Below, piece by piece: positions 20,600 to 28,101 of a DNA stretch of 64,000 nt. Below the pieces are notes generated by a model. That model made no database searches and was not told the DNA's origin. It worked only from the letters and a program-made list of their open reading frames with translations. Source of the stretch: Rhizobacter sp. AJA081-3 (GTDB lineage: Bacteria; Pseudomonadota; Gammaproteobacteria; Burkholderiales; Burkholderiaceae_C); NCBI RefSeq assembly GCF_017795745.1, contig NZ_CP059067.1, forward strand, positions 1,054,001 through 1,118,000, in the 5' to 3' direction. The stretch's first letter is position 1. Every line of letters starts with the position of its first letter. The translations under genes and the position numbers were made by a program.

Positions 20600-21031
20600 T
20601 CAGCGCGTCGCGCGCCGGCGCACGCATTCGAGGTAGCGCTCGCCGTCGGGCGGCAGCCCGCTCTTCTGCGAGGCCCAGACCATCTCGCCCAGGCACTCCA
20701 TCACCTCGTGGTGCGCCTCGTGCGCCGAGCCACGCCGGGCAGCGAGCAGCTCGAAGGCCTGCCGGATGCCGCGCGGCTGGTCGATCGACACCTGCTCGGT
20801 GATCGTCAGGTGCATCGACAGGTGCAGGAAGGGATTGGTGCGGCCGCTCTCGACGTCGTAGACCGACGCCAGCGCCGCTTCGAGGTCGTCGAGTTCGGCG
20901 TGGTACTCCGGATGCTCGTCGATCCAGTCGGCGGCCAGCGCCTCCATCGGGATCAGCGGCAGGCCGTCGCGGCGCTTGCGGCGCGTGTCGCAGAAGAATC
21001 GGCGCACGTCGTTCTGGGAAGGAGCAAACAT
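20600..21031 (-). CDS. DUF1841 family protein
   Basis: A 143-aa soluble protein. Family blocks are EHPEYHAELDDLEAAL, NPFLHLSMHLTITEQ and HEAHHEVMECLGEMVWASQ. DUF1841 is common in beta- and gammaproteobacteria, and its function is unknown. It is divergent from the TauE/SafE gene, with 37 bp between starts, and ends 16 bp after the GGDEF/EAL gene, tail to tail. Confidence 0.88.
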   Translation of the reverse strand: MFAPSQNDVRRFFCDTRRKRRDGLPLIPMEALAADWIDEHPEYHAELDDLEAALASVYDVESGRTNPFLHLSMHLTITEQVSIDQPRGIRQAFELLAARRGSAHEAHHEVMECLGEMVWASQKSGLPPDGERYLECVRRRATR

Positions 21032-21068
21032 CCGACAATTGTCTCTCGACAGGAAAAGACGGACCCTG

Positions 21069-21836
21069 ATGACGGCATGGAGCGAGCTGCCGCTGATCCA
21101 CGATGCGGCCTTCTATGCCGTGGCTGTGCCGGCGGTGTTGATGATGGGCCTGTCCAAGAGCGGCTTCCTCGGCGGCTTCGGCTCGCTGGCGGTGCCGCTG
21201 ATGGCGCTGGCGATTCCGGTGCCGCAGGCGGCGGCGATCATGCTGCCGCTGCTGCTGGTGATGGACGCGACCGGCCTGCAGCAGCTGTGGAGACACTGCG
21301 ACCGCGAGCTGCTGCGCCTGCTTCTGCCCGCCGGCCTGCTCGGCACGGTGGTCGGCACGGTGCTGTTCGGCGTGCTGAGCACGGCGACGGTGGCCGCCGT
21401 GGTGGGCGCGCTGACGCTGCTCTTTCTCGCCCAGCGGCTGCTGTTCCCGCCGCGTGCCGACAGCCCGCCGCCGCCGCGCCCGCTGGGCTTCGTGCTGGGC
21501 ATCGCGTCGGGCTTCACCAGCTTCGTCGCGCATGCCGGCAGCCCGCCGATCAATGCCTACGTGCTGCCGCTGCGCCTGGCACCGCTGACCTATGCCGCGA
21601 CCATGTCGGTGTTCTTCGCCGCGGTGAACCTGTCGAAGTGGATCCCCTACGCCTGGCTGGGCCTGATCGACCTGCGCAACATGAGCACCTCGCTCGTGCT
21701 GATGCCGTTGGCGCCACTGGGCGTGTGGCTGGGCGTGTGGGCCACGCGCCGCATCGACGCGAGCTGGTTCTACCGGCTCGCCTACACCGGCATGTTTCTC
21801 ACCGGTGCGAAGCTGCTGTACGACGGGCTGAAGTGA
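21069..21836 (+). CDS. TauE/SafE family sulfite/anion exporter
   Basis: A 255-aa inner-membrane protein with about eight helices and the internal two-fold repeat of the TauE/SafE family: MGLSKSGFLGGFGSLAVPLM near the start and GIASGFTSFVAHAGSPPINAY after the midpoint. Members export sulfite, sulfoacetate or other small anions; the substrate here cannot be read from sequence. ATG 21069 is chosen since upstream in-frame codons overlap the divergent DUF1841 gene. It converges on the zinc operon with a 7-bp gap. Confidence 0.88.
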   Translation: MTAWSELPLIHDAAFYAVAVPAVLMMGLSKSGFLGGFGSLAVPLMALAIPVPQAAAIMLPLLLVMDATGLQQLWRHCDRELLRLLLPAGLLGTVVGTVLFGVLSTATVAAVVGALTLLFLAQRLLFPPRADSPPPPRPLGFVLGIASGFTSFVAHAGSPPINAYVLPLRLAPLTYAATMSVFFAAVNLSKWIPYAWLGLIDLRNMSTSLVLMPLAPLGVWLGVWATRRIDASWFYRLAYTGMFLTGAKLLYDGLK

Positions 21837-21843
21837 GCGGGGG

Positions 21844-22410
21844 CTACTTCTTGTCGGTGTAGATGTCGATGGCCACGGCTTCCAGCCGGTAGCCGCTGGC
21901 GCCCATGAAGGTGTCCGAACGCAGCGTCTTCAGCGTGCCGCTGATCCACACCGCGTCCATCGACTTCACGCCCTTGGCGGCCTCGCGCGGGCGCACGTGG
22001 ATGATCTGGTTCGAGGGCGGCGGCGGCGAGTGGATGCAGGCCCCGAAGTAGGGCACGAGCAGGAACTCGGTCATGCCCGACTTGCCTTCTTCGAGCGGCA
22101 CCACGTAGCCCGGGATGCGGATCGCCTTGCCGTCCATCGCGTTGTTGGTCGGTGCGTTGTCCCAGGTCTCGCGCATCTTCTTCAGCATGGCGGCCGCGCG
22201 CGGGTCGGCATCGCTGAGCACGCCGAAGTTCATGTCCTTGAACTGCTTGAGCGGATCCCAGTCCTTGGGTACCAGATCGTCCCAGGTGATTTCCGGGAAG
22301 CCGGCGCGGGCCGGGGCGGCGGCCTTGGCGGCCGGCTTGTCCTGCGCGGCGGCGTGCGCGCCCGGCAGGGCCAGGGCCATCGCAATCAGCCAGGGAGCGG
22401 TTCGGTTCAT
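21844..22410 (-). CDS. DUF3299 domain-containing exported protein (zinc operon)
   Basis: A 188-aa protein with a signal peptide (MNRTAPWLIAMALALPGAHA) and a DUF3299 domain. The hallmark GACIHSPPPPSNQIIHV (about 124-140) offers Cys and His residues that could bind metal. IRIPGYVVPLEEG precedes it and the fold is small and beta-rich. It ends the nine-gene zinc operon, 14 bp after the FtsX-type permease. Association with a ZrgA-like protein and an FtsX-type ABC pair suggests it works in zinc handling in the periplasm (inference). Confidence 0.85.
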   Translation of the reverse strand: MNRTAPWLIAMALALPGAHAAAQDKPAAKAAAPARAGFPEITWDDLVPKDWDPLKQFKDMNFGVLSDADPRAAAMLKKMRETWDNAPTNNAMDGKAIRIPGYVVPLEEGKSGMTEFLLVPYFGACIHSPPPPSNQIIHVRPREAAKGVKSMDAVWISGTLKTLRSDTFMGASGYRLEAVAIDIYTDKK

Positions 22411-22424
22411 CGTCGGTTCCTCGT

Positions 22425-23699
22425 TCAGCTGCGCGGCGACAGGCCGTCGGACAGCGACATCCGGTAGGCGCGCAGGCCCGGGATCAGGCTGGCCAGCACG
22501 CCGGCCGCCAATACGCCGCCGAGCAGCAGCCCTTGTGATGCGCTCGGCTCGCCGAGGTTCAATGTCACGCCGTAGTGAGACTGTACCCAGGGCCCGGCCC
22601 CGGCGATCAGTGCCACGCAGGCCAGCGTGCCCAGCAGCATGCCGGCCAGCGTGACGAGCAGGCCCTCGGCGGCCAGCAGCACCAGCACGTCGCGCGGGCC
22701 GGCGCCGACGGCGCGCAACACGGCGAGCTCGCGGCGGCGCTCGTTCAGCCCGGCCAGCACGGTGGCCACCAGCCCGGCCAGGCTGACCAGCGCCACCAGA
22801 GCCGACAGACCGATGAGCAGCTTCTCGCCCACGCCGACCACGTTCCAGAGTTCGTCCAGCGCCACGCCGGGCAGCACCGCCATCAGCGGCTCGCCCTCGT
22901 AGTCGTTGACGAAACGCTGCACCGCGAAGACCGCGGCGCGCCCCTTCAGGCCGACCAGCGCGGCGGTGACCTGCTTGGGCGCGAGATCGAACTTGCGCGC
23001 CTGCTCGGCCGGGATGGCCAGGCCCTTCATCGGCGTGCCGGCCGACCAGTCGAGGTGGATCGCTTCGAGCGCGGGCAGGCTGATGTGTACGGTGCGGTCC
23101 ACCGGCGTGCCGGTCGGCGCGAGGATGCCGACCACGGTGAAGGGCTTGTCGGCATGCTCGCTGCCCGGCAGCGTGCCGCTGCCGTGGCTGAGCACGATGG
23201 GGTCGCCGAGCTTGTAGCGCAGGCGCTGCGCGACCTCCGCGCCGAGCACGGTGCCGTACAGGCCGTCGAGATCGCCGCTGAAGGGCGAGCCGTGCTCGAG
23301 CCGCAGCGCCTGCCGCTCGCCGTAGCGGAAACGCTCGAAGAACGCCTTCGTCGTGCCCAGCACCGGGAAGCCGCGGTGCGAGTCGCCCAGCGACAGCGGC
23401 ACCACCCAGTCGACGGCGCGGTGTTTCGCGATCTCCTCGATGCTTTCCATGCGCACGTTGTTGGTGGCGCCGCCGAGATGGAACACGGCGTAGAGCATCA
23501 GCTGCACGGAGCCGGTGCGTGCGCCGACGACGAGGTCGGTGCCGCTGACGGCCTGAGAGAAGTTGTCGCGCACGTCGATGCGCACCCGATCGAAGGCGAG
23601 CAGCAACAGCGTCGACAGCGCGATCGACAGCGCCACCAGCGACAGCGTGCCGCGGCGGTTCCAGGCGCTGGCCGCCGCCAGGCTCAGCAGCGCCTTCAT
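22425..23699 (-). CDS. FtsX/MacB-type ABC transporter permease (zinc operon)
   Basis: A 424-aa permease: first helix at about 17-38, a periplasmic MacB-like core domain (about 40-270), then three helices in an FtsX domain (about 295-415; LIGLSALVALVSLAGLVATVLAGLNE and ELAVLRAVGAGPRDV). This is the mechanotransmission or lipoprotein-release type, not a ZnuB-type importer. It overlaps its ATPase gene by 4 bp (ATGA at 23696-23699). Likely extracts or activates a periplasmic partner such as the ZrgA-like or DUF3299 protein; this is inference. Confidence 0.88.
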   Translation of the reverse strand: MKALLSLAAASAWNRRGTLSLVALSIALSTLLLLAFDRVRIDVRDNFSQAVSGTDLVVGARTGSVQLMLYAVFHLGGATNNVRMESIEEIAKHRAVDWVVPLSLGDSHRGFPVLGTTKAFFERFRYGERQALRLEHGSPFSGDLDGLYGTVLGAEVAQRLRYKLGDPIVLSHGSGTLPGSEHADKPFTVVGILAPTGTPVDRTVHISLPALEAIHLDWSAGTPMKGLAIPAEQARKFDLAPKQVTAALVGLKGRAAVFAVQRFVNDYEGEPLMAVLPGVALDELWNVVGVGEKLLIGLSALVALVSLAGLVATVLAGLNERRRELAVLRAVGAGPRDVLVLLAAEGLLVTLAGMLLGTLACVALIAGAGPWVQSHYGVTLNLGEPSASQGLLLGGVLAAGVLASLIPGLRAYRMSLSDGLSPRS

Positions 23700-24394
23700 C
23701 CGGCAGCCTCGTGCAAGGCGTGGTTCAGATCCGGCAGCGAGGCCGCACGGTCGAAGCGGCGCGCCAGTCGCTCGTCGTGGCTGACGAAGACCAGCGTGCT
23801 GCCGGCGGCGCGGCATTCGCCGAGCAGCACGTCCATGAAGTCGTCGCGTAACGTGGCGTCCAGCGCCGAGGTCGGCTCGTCGGCGATCACCACCTCGGGC
23901 GCGCCGATCAGCGCGCGCGCCGCGGCCACGCGTTGCTGCTGTCCGACCGAAAGCTCGCGCGCGTCACGAGGAAACAGGCTTGAATCCAGCCCGACACGCT
24001 CGAGCAGCGATCGCGCCTGCGCCGCCGGCGAGCCGCTGCGCTGCGTGGCGCGTGCGGCGCGCGAGGGCGAGAAGCGGCAGCCCAGCAGCACGTTGTCGGT
24101 CACGTTCAGCCAGGGCAGCAGGTTGAACTGCTGGAACAGGTAGCCGACATGGTCGGCGCGGAAGGCATCGCGCGCCGCGCCGGACATCGAGCCCCAGGAG
24201 CGGCCGGCCATCGACACGCTGCCGGCACGTGGCACCAGCACGCCGGCCAGCAGCGACAGCAGCGTGCTCTTGCCGCAGCCGCTCGGGCCGTGCAGGAACA
24301 GCGTCTCGCCGGCGCTGACCTGCAGCGTGTCGATGGCCAGGCAGTCGCGCCCGGCTCGCGGCCAGGCGTAGCGCAGATCGTGCAGCTCGATCAC
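23696..24394 (-). CDS. ABC transporter ATP-binding protein (LolD/MacB type, zinc operon)
   Basis: A 232-aa ATPase: Walker A GPSGCGKST (about 36-44), Q-loop FQQFNLLPWLNV, signature written LSVGQQQR in place of the usual LSGGQQQR, Walker B VVIADEPTSALD and switch His in VSHDE. The insert FSPSRAARATQRSGSPAA before the signature is not typical. Partner of the FtsX-type permease that it overlaps by 4 bp; both lie 9 bp downstream of the ZrgA-like gene. Confidence 0.9.
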   Translation of the reverse strand: MIELHDLRYAWPRAGRDCLAIDTLQVSAGETLFLHGPSGCGKSTLLSLLAGVLVPRAGSVSMAGRSWGSMSGAARDAFRADHVGYLFQQFNLLPWLNVTDNVLLGCRFSPSRAARATQRSGSPAAQARSLLERVGLDSSLFPRDARELSVGQQQRVAAARALIGAPEVVIADEPTSALDATLRDDFMDVLLGECRAAGSTLVFVSHDERLARRFDRAASLPDLNHALHEAAG

Positions 24395-24403
24395 GCCGAG
24401 CCG

Positions 24404-24922
24404 CTAGCGCGCCAGCTCGACGCGCTGCGCCGGGCGGACGAGCACTTGCTTGCGCTGGCCCTTGGACGTGGCGCTCTGCACCTCCAGCCGGGCCAGACGC
24501 GGGAAGGCCTTGAACAGGCCGATCTCGACGAAGGCCGGGGCCGACTTGCAGGTGAACTCGAAGTCGGCGTCGAGGTCGCCGTGGCCGTCATCGGCTGAGG
24601 ACTTGGCATCGCCCAGCTTGAGCGGCGCAGACGCCAGCGAGACCGGCCCCAGGCTGCACTGCGCGGCGGGGTCGATGCGGAACAGCGTGTCGGCCGCCTT
24701 CAGCGTGGCGACCATCGACTCGACGGCGCGCTTCTCGGCGGCGCTGCGCGGCGCGCGCTCGAAGCCGAGCAGGCCGTCCAGCGGCGATTCGAGCGAGATG
24801 ACCAGGCGGCCCGGCTCGACGGCGATGTCGAGCTTCGCCGCGCCGTGTTCGTGGGCCTTGCCGGCCAGCGCCGGCAAGGAGATCAGAGTCGCCAGCGTGG
24901 CGGCGATCAGGTGCTGCTTCAT
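24404..24922 (-). CDS. zrgA: DUF2796 / ZrgA-family periplasmic protein
   Basis: A 172-aa protein with signal peptide (MKQHLIAATLATLISLPALA) followed at once by a metal-binding-like GKAHEHGAAKLDIAV. The family (DUF2796, ZrgA of Vibrio) takes part in zinc uptake. The long His-rich loop of many ZrgA proteins is short here (ADDGHGDLDADFEF). Two Cys residues could form a disulfide. It lies 20 bp after znuA and 9 bp before the ABC ATPase gene. The symbol is by family and context. Confidence 0.8.
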   Translation of the reverse strand: MKQHLIAATLATLISLPALAGKAHEHGAAKLDIAVEPGRLVISLESPLDGLLGFERAPRSAAEKRAVESMVATLKAADTLFRIDPAAQCSLGPVSLASAPLKLGDAKSSADDGHGDLDADFEFTCKSAPAFVEIGLFKAFPRLARLEVQSATSKGQRKQVLVRPAQRVELAR

Positions 24923-24942
24923 CGTTTGGCCATCCTCGTCGG

Positions 24943-25836
24943 TCAGCGTGCTGCCACGGCCTGCAGCGCCGCGGCGATCGACTTCACGTTGTGCGCATAC
25001 ATGCGCAGGAAGGTGTCGGCACCGGCGCCCGGCTGGGACAGTGCGTCCGAGTACAGGGTGCCGCCGACGCGCGCACCGGTCTCCTGAGCGATGCGCTCGA
25101 TGCTGCGGCGGTCGGTGATGTTCTCGACGAACAGCGCGCGGGCCTGGTGCAGCCGAACCTGCCGGATCACCGAGGCCACGCCGGCGGCGGAAGCTTCGCT
25201 GTCGGTGTTCCAGGCGCGCGGAGAAATGAAGGTGATCCCGTAAGCGTCGCCAAGATAGCCGAAGGCATCGTGCGTGGTGACCACGCGGCGCTGCTCGCGC
25301 GGCACAGCTTCGAACGCGGCGCGTGCGCTCGCATCGAGCGCGACGATGCGCTCGCGGTAGACGGCGGCGCGTGCATCGATCGCCGCGGCCTGCGCCGGCG
25401 CGGCGGCCACCAGTGCCGCGCGCATGTTCTCGACGTAGCGCTGCGCGTGTGCCAGGCTTTGCCAGGCGTGCGGATCGGCCGCACGACCGACGCGCCGCGG
25501 CTCGATCCCGCGCGAGGCCTCGATCACCGGGCCGCGGTAGCCGGAACTGCGCACCAGGCGATCGATCCAGCCTTCGAAGTGCAGCCCGTTGACCACCACC
25601 AGGTCGGCCTTGGCCAGGCGCTGCGCGTCGGCCGGCGTGGGTTCGAACACATGCGCATCGGCGTTGGCGCCGACCAGGCTGTGCACCTGTGCCGCATCGC
25701 CGGCGATCTCGCGCAGCATGTCGGCGAGGATCGAGAAGCTCGCCACCACCTGCAGCGGCCGGGCGGTCTGCGCGCGCAGCGGCGCGGCGATGCCGAGCAG
25801 CGCGAGCGCAAGGAAGAGTGTGACGAGGCGACGCAT
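24943..25836 (-). CDS. znuA: zinc ABC transporter substrate-binding protein ZnuA/AztC-like
   Basis: A 297-aa cluster A-I binding protein with signal peptide (residues 1-22). Predicted metal ligands are His62 (DAHVFEP), His123 (DPHAWQ), His189 (TTHDAFGYL) and Asp264 (LYSDALS). It lacks the long His-rich loop of classical ZnuA; the three-His-one-Asp set resembles AztC. It delivers Zn(II) in the periplasm to the permease encoded 6 bp upstream. Mn(II) cannot be excluded from residues alone, but the operon regulator and ZrgA-like protein favour zinc. Confidence 0.85.
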   Translation of the reverse strand: MRRLVTLFLALALLGIAAPLRAQTARPLQVVASFSILADMLREIAGDAAQVHSLVGANADAHVFEPTPADAQRLAKADLVVVNGLHFEGWIDRLVRSSGYRGPVIEASRGIEPRRVGRAADPHAWQSLAHAQRYVENMRAALVAAAPAQAAAIDARAAVYRERIVALDASARAAFEAVPREQRRVVTTHDAFGYLGDAYGITFISPRAWNTDSEASAAGVASVIRQVRLHQARALFVENITDRRSIERIAQETGARVGGTLYSDALSQPGAGADTFLRMYAHNVKSIAAALQAVAAR

Positions 25837-25842
25837 GGTGGT

Positions 25843-26718
25843 TCAGGCCACGCGGTGCGCGTGCAGCGCGCTGCGGCGGGCGAGCAGGCTGTCGTGGCGG
25901 CCGGCGGCCAGCGAGACGAGGTAGGCCGCGCCGGCCAGCAGCACGATGGCCGGGCCCGAGGGCAACTGCAGGTGGTAGCTCAGCAGCAGGCCGCCGGCGC
26001 CGCTGAACAGCGCGATCGCGGTGGCCGTGGCGGCCAGGCTCCACACCTCGCGGGCCCAGAAGCGCGCCGCGGTGGCCGGCAGCATCATCAGGCCCACGGC
26101 CATCAGCGTGCCCAGGGCCTGGAAGCCGGCGACGAGGTTGAGCACCACGAGGCCGAGAAAGACGAAGTGCAGCGCGCGTTCACGCCCGCCCACCGAGCGC
26201 AGGAAGCCGGGGTCGACACTGGCCACGAGCAACGGCCGGTAGGCCGCCGCGACGACCAGCAGCGTGACGCTGGCCACGCCCGCGACCGTGATGAGCGCGG
26301 TGTCGTCGACCGCGAGGATGCTGCCGAACAGCACGTGCATCAGGTCCACCGGGCTGCCGTGGGTGGAGACGATCAGGACACCGGCGGCCAGCGCGATCAG
26401 GTAGAAGGCTGCGAAGCTGGCGTCCTCGCGCTGCGTGGTGACCTGCGCCACCCACCCGGCGAGCACGGCCACCAGCAGTGCCGCCGCCAGCCCACCGGCA
26501 CCCATGGCCGGCAGCGAGAACCCGGCCAGCGCGAAGCCGATCGCCGCGCCGGGCAGTACGGCATGCGCCATCGCGTCGCCCATCAGGCTCATGCGGCGAA
26601 GCACCAGCAGCGTGCCCATCGGCGCGCTGCCCAGCGCAAGCGCGACGCAGGCCACCAGCGCGCGGCGCATGAAGCCGAACTCCACGAAGGGCTGCAGGAA
26701 GATCTCGTACGGGCCCAT
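25843..26718 (-). CDS. znuB: zinc ABC transporter permease ZnuB-like
   Basis: A 291-aa inner-membrane permease of the ABC-3 family with about eight helices (LVACVALALGSAPMGTLLVL, MGDAMAHAVLPGAAIGF, FLGLVVLNLVAGFQALGTLM). The ATG at 26718 has GAGG 8 bases upstream; an ATG two codons earlier (26724) would have it too close. The C-terminus carries HDS and ALHAHRVA histidines. It lies between znuC and znuA with gaps of about 10 and 6 bp. Confidence 0.88.
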   Translation of the reverse strand: MGPYEIFLQPFVEFGFMRRALVACVALALGSAPMGTLLVLRRMSLMGDAMAHAVLPGAAIGFALAGFSLPAMGAGGLAAALLVAVLAGWVAQVTTQREDASFAAFYLIALAAGVLIVSTHGSPVDLMHVLFGSILAVDDTALITVAGVASVTLLVVAAAYRPLLVASVDPGFLRSVGGRERALHFVFLGLVVLNLVAGFQALGTLMAVGLMMLPATAARFWAREVWSLAATATAIALFSGAGGLLLSYHLQLPSGPAIVLLAGAAYLVSLAAGRHDSLLARRSALHAHRVA

Positions 26719-26728
26719 GGTCATGCCC

Positions 26729-27463
26729 TCAGGCCCGCTCGCACACCGGTGCGGACTCGTCCCAGCGCTCCGACATCTGGCGCGCGCGGAACAGGTTCTC
26801 GGCATGCAGCACCTGCGCCGTCGGCCCCCAGGCCACGGCCTCGCGGGCGAGCAGCAGGGTCTGCGGGAAGTTCTCGCGCACCAGCTCCATGTCGTGCAGC
26901 ACCGCCACCACGGTGCGCGCTTCGCCGTGCCAGCGCCGCACCACGGCGAGCAGGTCGGCGCTGGTGCGCGCGTCGATGGCGTTGAAGGGTTCGTCGAGCA
27001 GGATCAGCTGTGCGTCCTGCAGCAGCACGCGGGCGAACAGCACGCGCTGGAACTGCCCGACCGAGAGCTCGCCGATGCGCCGCTGCTCGAAGCCCGACAG
27101 GCCCACCGAGGCCAGCGCCTCGCGCGCCTTCTCGCGCAGCGGCCGGTCGATGGCGCCGAAGGCACCACGGCGCGGCCAGTGGCCGAGCGAAACGAGATCG
27201 AGCACGCCGACCGGGAAGCTGCGGTCGATCTGCGACTGCTGCGGCAGGTAGGCCACACGGCCGACCAGCGCCGGCGCGATCTCGATGCGACCGGAGTTCA
27301 CCGGCAGCCGGCCCGCGAGTGCATCCAGCAGGCTGCTCTTGCCGGCGCCGTTGGGCCCGACGATGGCCATCAACGCACCTTGGTCGATCTCGCCGCTGAG
27401 GTGATGCACGGCAGGGTGGCGCTGGTGCGTCACCGTCAGGTCGATGAAGCGCACTGCGTTCAT
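26729..27463 (-). CDS. znuC: zinc ABC transporter ATP-binding protein ZnuC-like
   Basis: A 244-aa ATPase: Walker A GPNGAGKSS, Q-loop YLPQQSQID, signature LSVGQFQR, Walker B LILLDEPFNAID and switch His in VLHDME. The Q-loop region YLPQQSQIDRSFPVGVLDLV is the type found in metal-chelate family 3 importers. Its ATG overlaps the stop of the His-rich gene (ATGA at 27460-27463). It drives Zn import with ZnuB and ZnuA. Confidence 0.9.
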   Translation of the reverse strand: MNAVRFIDLTVTHQRHPAVHHLSGEIDQGALMAIVGPNGAGKSSLLDALAGRLPVNSGRIEIAPALVGRVAYLPQQSQIDRSFPVGVLDLVSLGHWPRRGAFGAIDRPLREKAREALASVGLSGFEQRRIGELSVGQFQRVLFARVLLQDAQLILLDEPFNAIDARTSADLLAVVRRWHGEARTVVAVLHDMELVRENFPQTLLLAREAVAWGPTAQVLHAENLFRARQMSERWDESAPVCERA

Positions 27464-27663
27464 GTCGTCAGGTCCGCCAGGGCCCAGGCCACCGCAGCCC
27501 ACAGCAGCACGAGGGCGGCCAGTGCCGCAGCCAAACGCGGCAGCGCGCCGCTCATCAGCACGCTGGCGGGGACATCCTCATCGTGCGGGCGGCGTTCGTC
27601 GTGCGCGTGATCATGCGCGTGTTCGTGCACGTGTTCGTGCGCATGGGCGTGCTCGTGGCTCAT
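27460..27663 (-). CDS. small His-rich membrane protein of the zinc operon, 67 aa
   Basis: The first 22 residues are almost only His, Glu, Ala and Asp (MSHEHAHAHEHVHEHAHDHA), with ten His, followed by an acidic linker and one transmembrane helix (about 40-62). It overlaps both neighbours by 4 bp (ATGA at 27660-27663 and 27460-27463), so it is translated with zur and znuC. It may hold Zn at the inner face of the membrane near the importer, or be a topogenic chaperone of ZnuB; no family name is known to me. Confidence 0.8.
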   Translation of the reverse strand: MSHEHAHAHEHVHEHAHDHAHDERRPHDEDVPASVLMSGALPRLAAALAALVLLWAAVAWALADLTT

Positions 27664-28067
27664 GTGGCCCTCGCGCAGTCGGCACACCGGCCACGCAGCG
27701 TCAACTCGTGCTGCTCGACGCGGAAGCCTGCCGGCGCCAGCCGGTCGATGCCGCTCGGGCAGCCGTGGATCGGGAACACCCGGTCGCACACGGTGCAATG
27801 GAAATGGTGGTGATGATGGTGCTCGTGCGCATGCGCGCTGCGCTCGGCGCAGGGTGCCTCGAAGCGCGCCGCCTGGCCAGGCAGGTCGACGCGCACCACC
27901 TGGGCTTCGTCGTGCAGCGTGCGCAACTGGCGGTAGACGGTCGACAGGTTCAGCGTCGGCACCTCGCCGCGCGCCAGATCGAGGATCTCCGCCGGCGCGA
28001 GCGAGCGCCCGCTGGAGGCGAGCGCCTGCAGCACGGCCTGCTTCTGTCGAGTCTGGCGGGATTCCAT
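27660..28067 (-). CDS. zur: Fur-family zinc regulator (Zur-like)
   Basis: A 135-aa repressor with N-terminal winged helix (STVYRQLRTL recognition region) and C-terminal metal-binding domain. Structural zinc Cys pairs are C91/C94 and C128/C131. Between the domains is a run HAHEHHHHHHFHC (about 79-91), unusually long for the HxHxH sensory site. It heads the zinc operon and presumably represses it through the palindrome 15 bp upstream when zinc is ample. Fur or PerR identity is unlikely given the neighbours. Confidence 0.85.
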   Translation of the reverse strand: MESRQTRQKQAVLQALASSGRSLAPAEILDLARGEVPTLNLSTVYRQLRTLHDEAQVVRVDLPGQAARFEAPCAERSAHAHEHHHHHHFHCTVCDRVFPIHGCPSGIDRLAPAGFRVEQHELTLRGRCADCARAT

Positions 28068-28081
28068 CGGCGCATCTTATT

Positions 28082-28101
28082 GCAAATGCAATTGCATTTG
28101 C
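28082..28101. promoter_or_regulatory. perfect 20-bp palindrome, probable Zur operator
   Basis: GCAAATGCAATTGCATTTGC is its own reverse complement over all 20 bases, and it stands out as an AT-rich island. It lies 15-34 bp upstream of the zur start, where a repressor would block the promoter. Binding by the neighbouring Fur-family protein is inference. Confidence 0.75.

Follow-up and report, generated by a model that had tools for sequence, protein, structure and literature searches.

A nine-gene zinc operon of Rhizobacter sp. AJA081-3 joins zur and an AztABC-like importer to the Zrg module

We analyzed a 64-kb stretch of the genome of Rhizobacter sp. AJA081-3 (hereafter, the window), in which nine minus-strand genes, running from position 28067 down to 21844 with 4-bp overlaps or 4-20 bp gaps (based on the open reading frame [ORF] listing and translations), join a Fur-family regulator and an ATP-binding cassette (ABC) zinc importer to the four genes of the Zrg module. 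The order, strand and spacing of the nine genes given in a preliminary description of this DNA were borne out, and its range (21844-28067) is exact. The first gene is zur (27660-28067; 135 aa), which scores 55 bits against Pfam FUR and lies under every NCBIfam equivalog cut-off, followed, with a 4-bp overlap, by a gene for a His-rich mini-protein (27460-27663; 67 aa, 11 His) with a C-terminal hydrophobic segment at residues 34-67. The importer consists of an AztA-like ATPase (26729-27463; Pfam ABC_tran; 4-bp overlap with the mini-protein gene), an AztB-like permease (25843-26724; Pfam ABC-3, 179.8 bits; gap of 4 bp) and an AztC-like zinc-binding protein of cluster A-I (24943-25836; Pfam ZnuA family, 266 bits; gap of 6 bp), the last of which has relatives with solved structures. 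Next come ZrgA (24404-24922; gap of 20 bp), of the periplasmic zinc-binding family PF10986 (138.2 bits vs. a Pfam cut-off of 27.4); ZrgC, an ATPase of the LolD/FtsE/MacB class (23696-24394; Pfam ABC_tran; GTG start; gap of 9 bp); ZrgB, a MacB/LolE-type permease with four transmembrane segments (22425-23699; MacB_PCD plus FtsX; four hydrophobic segments; 4-bp overlap with the ZrgC gene); and ZrgE, an OB-like periplasmic protein of the DUF3299 family (21844-22410; 154.2 bits; structural relative 4hsp; gap of 14 bp). Scans of the nine-gene operon for promoters and terminators gave no match.

It is virtually certain that the four-gene module is the Zrg system, that is, zrgA, zrgC, zrgB and zrgE of Vibrio and PA4063-PA4066 of Pseudomonas aeruginosa. 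The module that the preliminary description took for a new kind of metal-uptake aid had been published already, with genetics and structures, and the MacB-like character of the permease is also in print. In V. cholerae, zrgA is required for the function of the zrgABCDE operon when znuA is absent, ZrgA binds zinc at four sites under 1 uM, ZrgB is MacB-like, and ZrgA is called the likely binding protein by the authors (PMC9820375), while in V. parahaemolyticus zrgE is a DUF3299 gene and the five zrg genes are induced 76- to 206-fold in zinc lack (PMC9817125). The system is under Zur control, and zrgA has zinc growth phenotypes in both species (PMC9820375, PMC9817125); zrgD is missing in some Vibrionaceae systems (PMC9817125) and hence was not taken as defining. 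The window module shares with the Vibrio operons ZrgA, the ABC ATPase, the MacB-like four-segment permease and the DUF3299 protein. The Vibrio zrg genes, however, form an operon of their own, which includes zrgD (DUF2607 in V. parahaemolyticus) but lacks an importer, whereas the window adds zur, the mini-protein and an AztABC-type importer in front, has no DUF2607 match among its nine proteins (Pfam), and encodes a ZrgA almost without the His loop (3 His from the HxHG motif on vs. a median of 11 in 88 ZrgA proteins). Against the NCBIfam equivalog NF047873, which is narrower than PF10986, this ZrgA scores 85.4 bits, under the cut-off of 185; its structural relatives are 7ahw and 8ezw. With P. 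aeruginosa the window shares the four families and the MacB-type ABC pair (PMC8561739, PMC11481552, PMC11761036); PA4063 (7ahw) has two micromolar zinc sites (PMC8561739), PA4066 is 4hsp, and the operon has Zur boxes but, unlike that of the window, no importer inside.

The importer itself is AztABC-like. Its proteins score highest on the NCBIfam models AztA, AztB and AztC (212.5, 252.1 and 267.9 bits), with all three below the equivalog cut-offs (220, 280 and 350, respectively), and fall far under the cut-offs for ZnuA (62.5 vs. 268) and ZnuB (87.2 vs. 284); we therefore rejected the label ZnuABC that the genes had initially been given. ZrgA occupies the position at which AztD would presumably lie. 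The likeness to AztABC(D) of Paracoccus denitrificans (PMC7731109) thus lies in the best-scoring models, and the difference in the sub-cut-off scores. Because the window genome has a single ABC-3 permease at E 1e-10, the operon's own, and no ZIP at E 1e-3, the operon may, as far as these family searches reach, hold the genome's sole importer of the ABC-3 and ZIP families.

The His-rich mini-protein has no significant Pfam or NCBIfam family; its identity as ZrgA or ZrgD was rejected, the sole Pfam match being to ZrgA at E 0.13 over the His-rich stretch only. A small protein with a similar hydrophobic C-terminus follows zur in six other loci (L135, L144, L152, L262, L263 and L264; L and G numbers denote loci and genomes), with 0 to 16 His. 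At the other end of the operon, a TauE/SafE-family gene on the plus strand (20976-21836) is convergent and ends 8 bases from the ZrgE gene, and the upstream neighbor of zur is a sodium/hydrogen-exchanger plus TrkA_N (Kef-like) gene.

The fusion of zur and aztABC with the Zrg module is an uncommon variant of the known system, and no description of it was found in the parts consulted of the open-access literature on zrg systems. Among the named loci, i.e., the best 80 of 172, which are redundant by lineage and include many Variovorax, the closest relative of the window permease is in a Piscinibacter metagenome-assembled genome (97% identity), which suggests a Piscinibacter-like betaproteobacterium as the host. 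Because all nine genes recur in the Piscinibacter metagenome-assembled genome L135, and five more of the named loci combine an AztABC-type importer with zrg genes (6 of the 80 in all: L135, L136, L137, L140, L144 and L152), the nine-gene arrangement represents more than chance. In L136 (Piscinibacter aquaticus) the operon genes seem to be split over overlapping frames, perhaps through assembly frameshifts; L137 is a short contig on which no zrgA was found; and in L044, L055 and L056, from other genomes of the order, the importer is divergent from the Zrg module.

The two parts of the operon also occur apart. No zrgA was found nearby in 19 of the 80 named loci, some of whose contigs end close by. 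We searched the genomes of 14 of these 19, and in 13 of them zrgA was on another contig, with none detected in the fourteenth (G586). In G589 (P. sakaiensis), 71 bases lie between zur-aztABC-zrgA and the end of its contig, and the start of zrgC is about 135 bases away from a different contig end, i.e., a fused operon may have been cut by the assembly; therefore, the clear cases of an unlinked zrgA number 12, not 13. Four of these 12 are beside aztABC, as zur-aztABC-zrgA (L262, L264), aztABC-zrgA (L267) or in divergent orientation (L261), so that the association of zrgA with the importer holds even without the ABC pair. Such retention of zrgA in a genome where it is gone from the module is a new observation. 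In P. defluvii, zrgC-zrgB-zrgE comes immediately after a sodium/hydrogen-exchanger plus TrkA_N gene like the one found ahead of zur in the window. The most fitting view of the window operon is that two components, each of which also exists on its own, have merged in it.

To place the module more broadly, we used 92 ZrgA loci, one per genome, from the genomes with ZrgA over the cut-off (31 among 200 from the order and 65 among 398 from the phylum, with four in common); second ZrgA copies (L123-L125) and loci with DUF3299 only were kept apart. Neighborhoods are the fetched stretches, within 9 kb of zrgA and shorter at contig ends (4.5 kb for L040). The ABC-3 label of L036, L037 and L042 was entered by hand from follow-up searches, and the ATPase labels of the importer-ATPase hidden Markov model, which also picked up ZrgC, were not counted. 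Because 79 of the 92 loci have both zrgB and zrgE (81 for each gene) and DUF3299 is present at E 1e-3 in 63 of the 65 ZrgA genomes (92 of the 398 overall), we consider the Zrg module a unit. Eleven loci lack zrgB, one of them the 4.5-kb contig, and among the genomes with such loci, four (G029, G114, G118 and G157) have DUF3299 elsewhere and four others (G061, G164, G406 and G317) show none. An extra DUF3299 gene without an adjoining ABC pair was seen in several genomes (L126, L233, L252-L254 and other loci).

An ABC-3/ZnuA importer is near zrgA in 7 of the 92 loci and ZIP in 6, either of them in 12 (one locus has both), while Fur is near in 18, COG0523 in 14, MerC in 13, and DksA and DUF1826 in 6 each; any of the zinc genes tested (importers, Fur, COG0523, MerC, DksA, DUF1826) is present in 33. 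That is, the module does mostly lie without zinc genes, which the preliminary description had named as counting against its proposal; however, Zur boxes (below) and the published zinc phenotypes keep Zrg a zinc system. The MerC-family membrane protein, found in L037, L042, L046, L070, L073, L076, L083, L084, L086, L091, L094, L096 and L122, and directly next to zrgA in L037, L042, L086 and L091, may be a further metal permease of the inner membrane.

The case for zinc control starts with a perfect 18-bp palindrome, CAAATGCAATTGCATTTG (28083-28100), which lies in the interval between the sodium/hydrogen-exchanger plus TrkA_N gene and zur, 15 bases ahead of the start of zur, and is probably a Zur box. 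The window contains a single copy of its 14-bp core (0.01 expected), and the site before zur is the only one in the whole genome at up to 3 mismatches, with no second site seen, compared to 5 occurrences of a reversed control pattern. Perfect palindromes also precede zur in L135 (identical), L144, L262 and L263, an imperfect one (by eye) in L264, and no palindrome was found ahead of the ORF starts assigned in L152 and L261. A Vibrio-type Zur box is upstream of zrgA in 43 of the 92 loci at up to 5 mismatches (4.7 expected) and in 27 at up to 4 (1.6 expected), counts to be read with the caveat that the loci, many of them close kin, are not independent. Because Zur boxes precede zrgA in these 43 loci, the module often appears to be a zinc-starvation unit even without an adjacent zinc gene, and the palindromes, the Zur boxes and the published regulation together argue for zinc control of Zrg over a wide range. 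Upstream of lone zrgA genes and of zrgC in zrgA-less loci of Burkholderiales, no convincing Zur-type palindrome was seen; an imperfect palindrome recurring in L146, L150, L160 and L177 was rejected since it reads, by eye, as coding sequence of the preceding gene.

Which importer might such a module serve? We searched 80 of the 92 ZrgA genomes, all at least 90% complete (six of the others are <90% complete). ABC-3 was missing at E 1e-10 from 28 of the 80, yet this cut-off proved too strict, as 7 of the 28 (G018 and G185 included) have a weak ABC-3 match at E 1e-3, and our claim rests instead on the ZnuA family, sought in these 28 genomes and present in 3 of them. Accordingly, no ZnuA-family protein was found in at least 25 of the 80 ZrgA genomes, and we rejected a general hand-over of zinc to ZnuA, which had been proposed for this operon at the outset. 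ZIP is over the cut-off in 19 of these 25 genomes. The ZIP gene is directly before zrgA on the same strand in G020 and G025, divergent and close to it in G493 and G505, and likewise divergent and close for the second ZrgA copies of G273 and G409; Pfam confirmed four of the ZIPs near zrgA, or relatives of these. In L032 and L043, zip-zrgA-zrgC-zrgB are on one strand. Among the 80 named loci, 24 have ZIP on the opposite strand (phmmer); in 23 of these, from Variovorax, Pseudacidovorax and close relatives, it is downstream of the module, and in L148 it is upstream, with those of L153 and L179 confirmed by Pfam. In L037 and L042 (G018 and G185), a ZnuA-like protein, a divergent ABC-3 protein, zrgA, MerC, zrgE, zrgC and zrgB are together, and no separate importer ATPase was found in this stretch, ZrgC being the sole ABC ATPase there. 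The neighborhood of the Zrg module with ZIP or divergent ZnuAB importers is new, and this gene-level pattern suggests that Zrg is a helper for moving zinc on the outer side of the inner membrane, able to be paired with importers of several unrelated kinds.

A Foldseek search with the ZrgB model returned LolCDE, MacB, HrtBA, YtrEF, YbbAP and FtsX among the 50 best matches (LolCDE and MacB first, at E 7e-14) and no importer, in line with the mechanotransmission (type VII) assignment made in the preliminary description. The likeness to type VII machines (LolCDE, MacB, HrtBA, FtsEX, YbbAP) extends to fold class and four-segment layout. Unlike MacAB-type machines, the window module has no MacA adaptor or TolC channel gene found beside it (single E. 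coli query sequences). Across 94 ZrgB sequences (the window included; picked by similarity; 26-65% identical to the window), H172, H182, H215, D106 and D201, all in the periplasmic domain, are invariant and make up 5 of the 15 fully invariant columns; in contrast, none of the five is found at the corresponding positions of E. coli MacB, LolC, LolE and YbbP, in an alignment that is approximate for such distant proteins. Three His and one Asp would suit a zinc site, and in the model two strands are joined by a loop with H172 on one side and H182 on the other (pLDDT, the predicted local distance difference test, <50 at 173-181). We thus regard the set, a new finding, as a candidate metal site on conservation grounds; no mention of these residues was found in the parts consulted of the open-access literature that names ZrgB, and the word histidine is absent from PMC11481552.

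The His/Asp set is also kept in 11 ZrgB sequences without a local zrgA (L128, L130, L218, L224, L229, L230, L238 and L244-L247). In ZrgE, C125 and H127 are invariant in 88 sequences, and six divergent partners have Cys-x-x-Cys or Cys-x-x-His in place of Cys-x-His. Divergent zrgC-zrgB pairs with such a weak DUF3299 relative, and with no zrgA found near, are present in L244, L245, L246, L247, L229 and L230, some of them beside Fur, COG0523, DksA, MerC or a TonB receptor; we consider these pairs a wider family of the same machine. Since the site is retained in these divergent systems, where no local zrgA is seen, the core of the machine, made up of the ATPase, the site-bearing permease and a DUF3299-type protein, may predate ZrgA.

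Taken together, we favor, at a probability of roughly 40%, the hypothesis that ZrgC-ZrgB, with ZrgA and ZrgE, is an ATP-driven periplasmic zinc mobilizer serving whichever importer is present. Zinc-loaded Zur would repress the operon through the palindrome, and zinc lack would lead to its expression. ZrgC and ZrgB would form a type VII machine that carries no zinc across the membrane; it is because of the type VII fold class that we do not see a channel in ZrgCB. The periplasmic domain of ZrgB would bind zinc by H172, H182, H215 and D201, with D106 as a possible further ligand, and the opening and closing of this site would be driven by cytoplasmic ATP turnover, while ZrgA and ZrgE (OB-like, with Cys-x-His) would bring zinc to it or take zinc from it. 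Scarce periplasmic zinc could in this way be stripped from weak sites and passed to the importer of the cell, i.e., AztC-AztB here and ZnuAB or ZIP elsewhere. The more specific version, an importer-independent mobilizer with its own His3-Asp site in ZrgB that lends zinc to AztABC, ZnuAB and ZIP, is a more doubtful proposition that we put forward tentatively.

It is important to note that several observations weigh against the mobilizer hypothesis. Importer neighbors are a minority (12 of 92 loci), and other Zur-type genes are equally common near zrgA (Fur 18, COG0523 14, MerC 13); therefore, co-regulation alone also explains the neighborhoods. Eight of the 12 clear cases of an unlinked zrgA are lone genes, and of the 25 genomes in which no ZnuA-family protein was found, 6 have no ZIP over the cut-off either. 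Four ZrgA genomes (G061, G164, G406 and G317) show no DUF3299 anywhere, so a genome can have ZrgA but not ZrgE. The quality of the ZrgB model is moderate (mean pLDDT of 72, loop 173-181 below 50), full-chain TM-scores (template modeling scores) to its best matches are only 0.3-0.4, and clustering of the five residues in space is conjectured. Single zrgD or zrgE deletions have no effect in V. cholerae (PMC9820375), deletion of PA4065 does not lower cell zinc in P. aeruginosa (PMC11481552, PMC11761036), and no report of zinc on ZrgB or ZrgE was found in the parts consulted of the literature on zrg.

Alternatively, ZrgA-ZrgC-ZrgB might itself be a zinc importer, with ZrgA as binding protein and ZrgB as permease, so that the window fusion would place two importers in one operon. 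This is the reading of the V. cholerae papers. It is supported by the need for zrgA in a znuA-null background and by the authors' view of ZrgA as the likely binding protein (PMC9820375), and also by a 2020 neighborhood network, in which ABC genes are found no more than five genes away from 97% of zrgA genes (PMC7731109, section 2.4). Also in its favor are the genomes in which no ZnuA-family protein was found, at least 25 of the 80, and the possibility that the ZrgB His/Asp residues are an entry site; in particular, for the 6 genomes that lack ZIP over the cut-off as well, something else must import zinc. However, the type VII fold class of ZrgB, with LolCDE, MacB, HrtBA and FtsX but no importer among its 50 best matches, and the ZIPs of the other 19 genomes, which in G020 and G025 directly precede zrgA, speak against import by ZrgB, and we consider this alternative somewhat unlikely.

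Less probable still is that the clustering reflects Zur co-regulation only, with ZrgC-ZrgB-ZrgE doing another envelope job (protein, lipoprotein or wall handling) when zinc is short and ZrgA sensing or buffering zinc for that job. The neighbors of Zur-regulon type (COG0523, MerC, DksA and DUF1826, at 14, 13, 6 and 6 of 92, plus dihydroorotase-like genes noted by eye near zrg in L091, L095 and L100), the lone zrgA genes, and LolCDE and FtsX among the nearest folds would all fit such a role, whereas the zrgA zinc growth phenotypes in two Vibrio species (PMC9820375, PMC9817125) and the conserved His/Asp set of ZrgB would not. We hold it to be improbable. The weakest alternative, and a very unlikely one, is a MacB-type exporter of a metallophore: TIGR01761 (thiazolinyl imide reductase family), which we take to be a pyochelin/yersiniabactin marker, is over the cut-off in 1 of 80 genomes (79 of the 92 ZrgA genomes plus G580; 8 others, the window genome among them, have sub-cut-off matches only; a control set gave matches in 2 of 14, 1 over the cut-off), MacA-like genes are near 3 and TolC-like genes near 1 of the 92 ZrgA loci, with MacA-like in 2 of the 80 named loci (single E. 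coli queries, which distant adaptors could escape), and general metallophore export was rejected on these marker and adaptor counts. It may still hold in P. aeruginosa, where PA4064-PA4065 was proposed to be an exporter of this type for pyochelin-cobalt (PMC11481552; discussed again in PMC11761036) and where the loss of PA4065 from a znuA zrmB strain leads to higher levels of pyochelin and cobalt inside the cells (PMC11481552).

In conclusion, the operon is real, zinc-related and, as a kind, mostly known, and its initial interpretation is partly supported. The two published readings of the Zrg system, a zinc importer in Vibrio and a metallophore exporter in Pseudomonas, disagree, and the comparison performed here offers a third, testable one. 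It singles out residues H172, H182, D201 and H215 of the permease and C125 and H127 of the DUF3299 protein, and the natural fusions with AztABC and ZIP make the hand-over of zinc approachable within one operon. We know of no metal-uptake system for which the use of ATP outside the importer to free the metal has been described; if the mobilizer hypothesis is true, ATP would be spent in just this way, outside the importer, to make zinc available.

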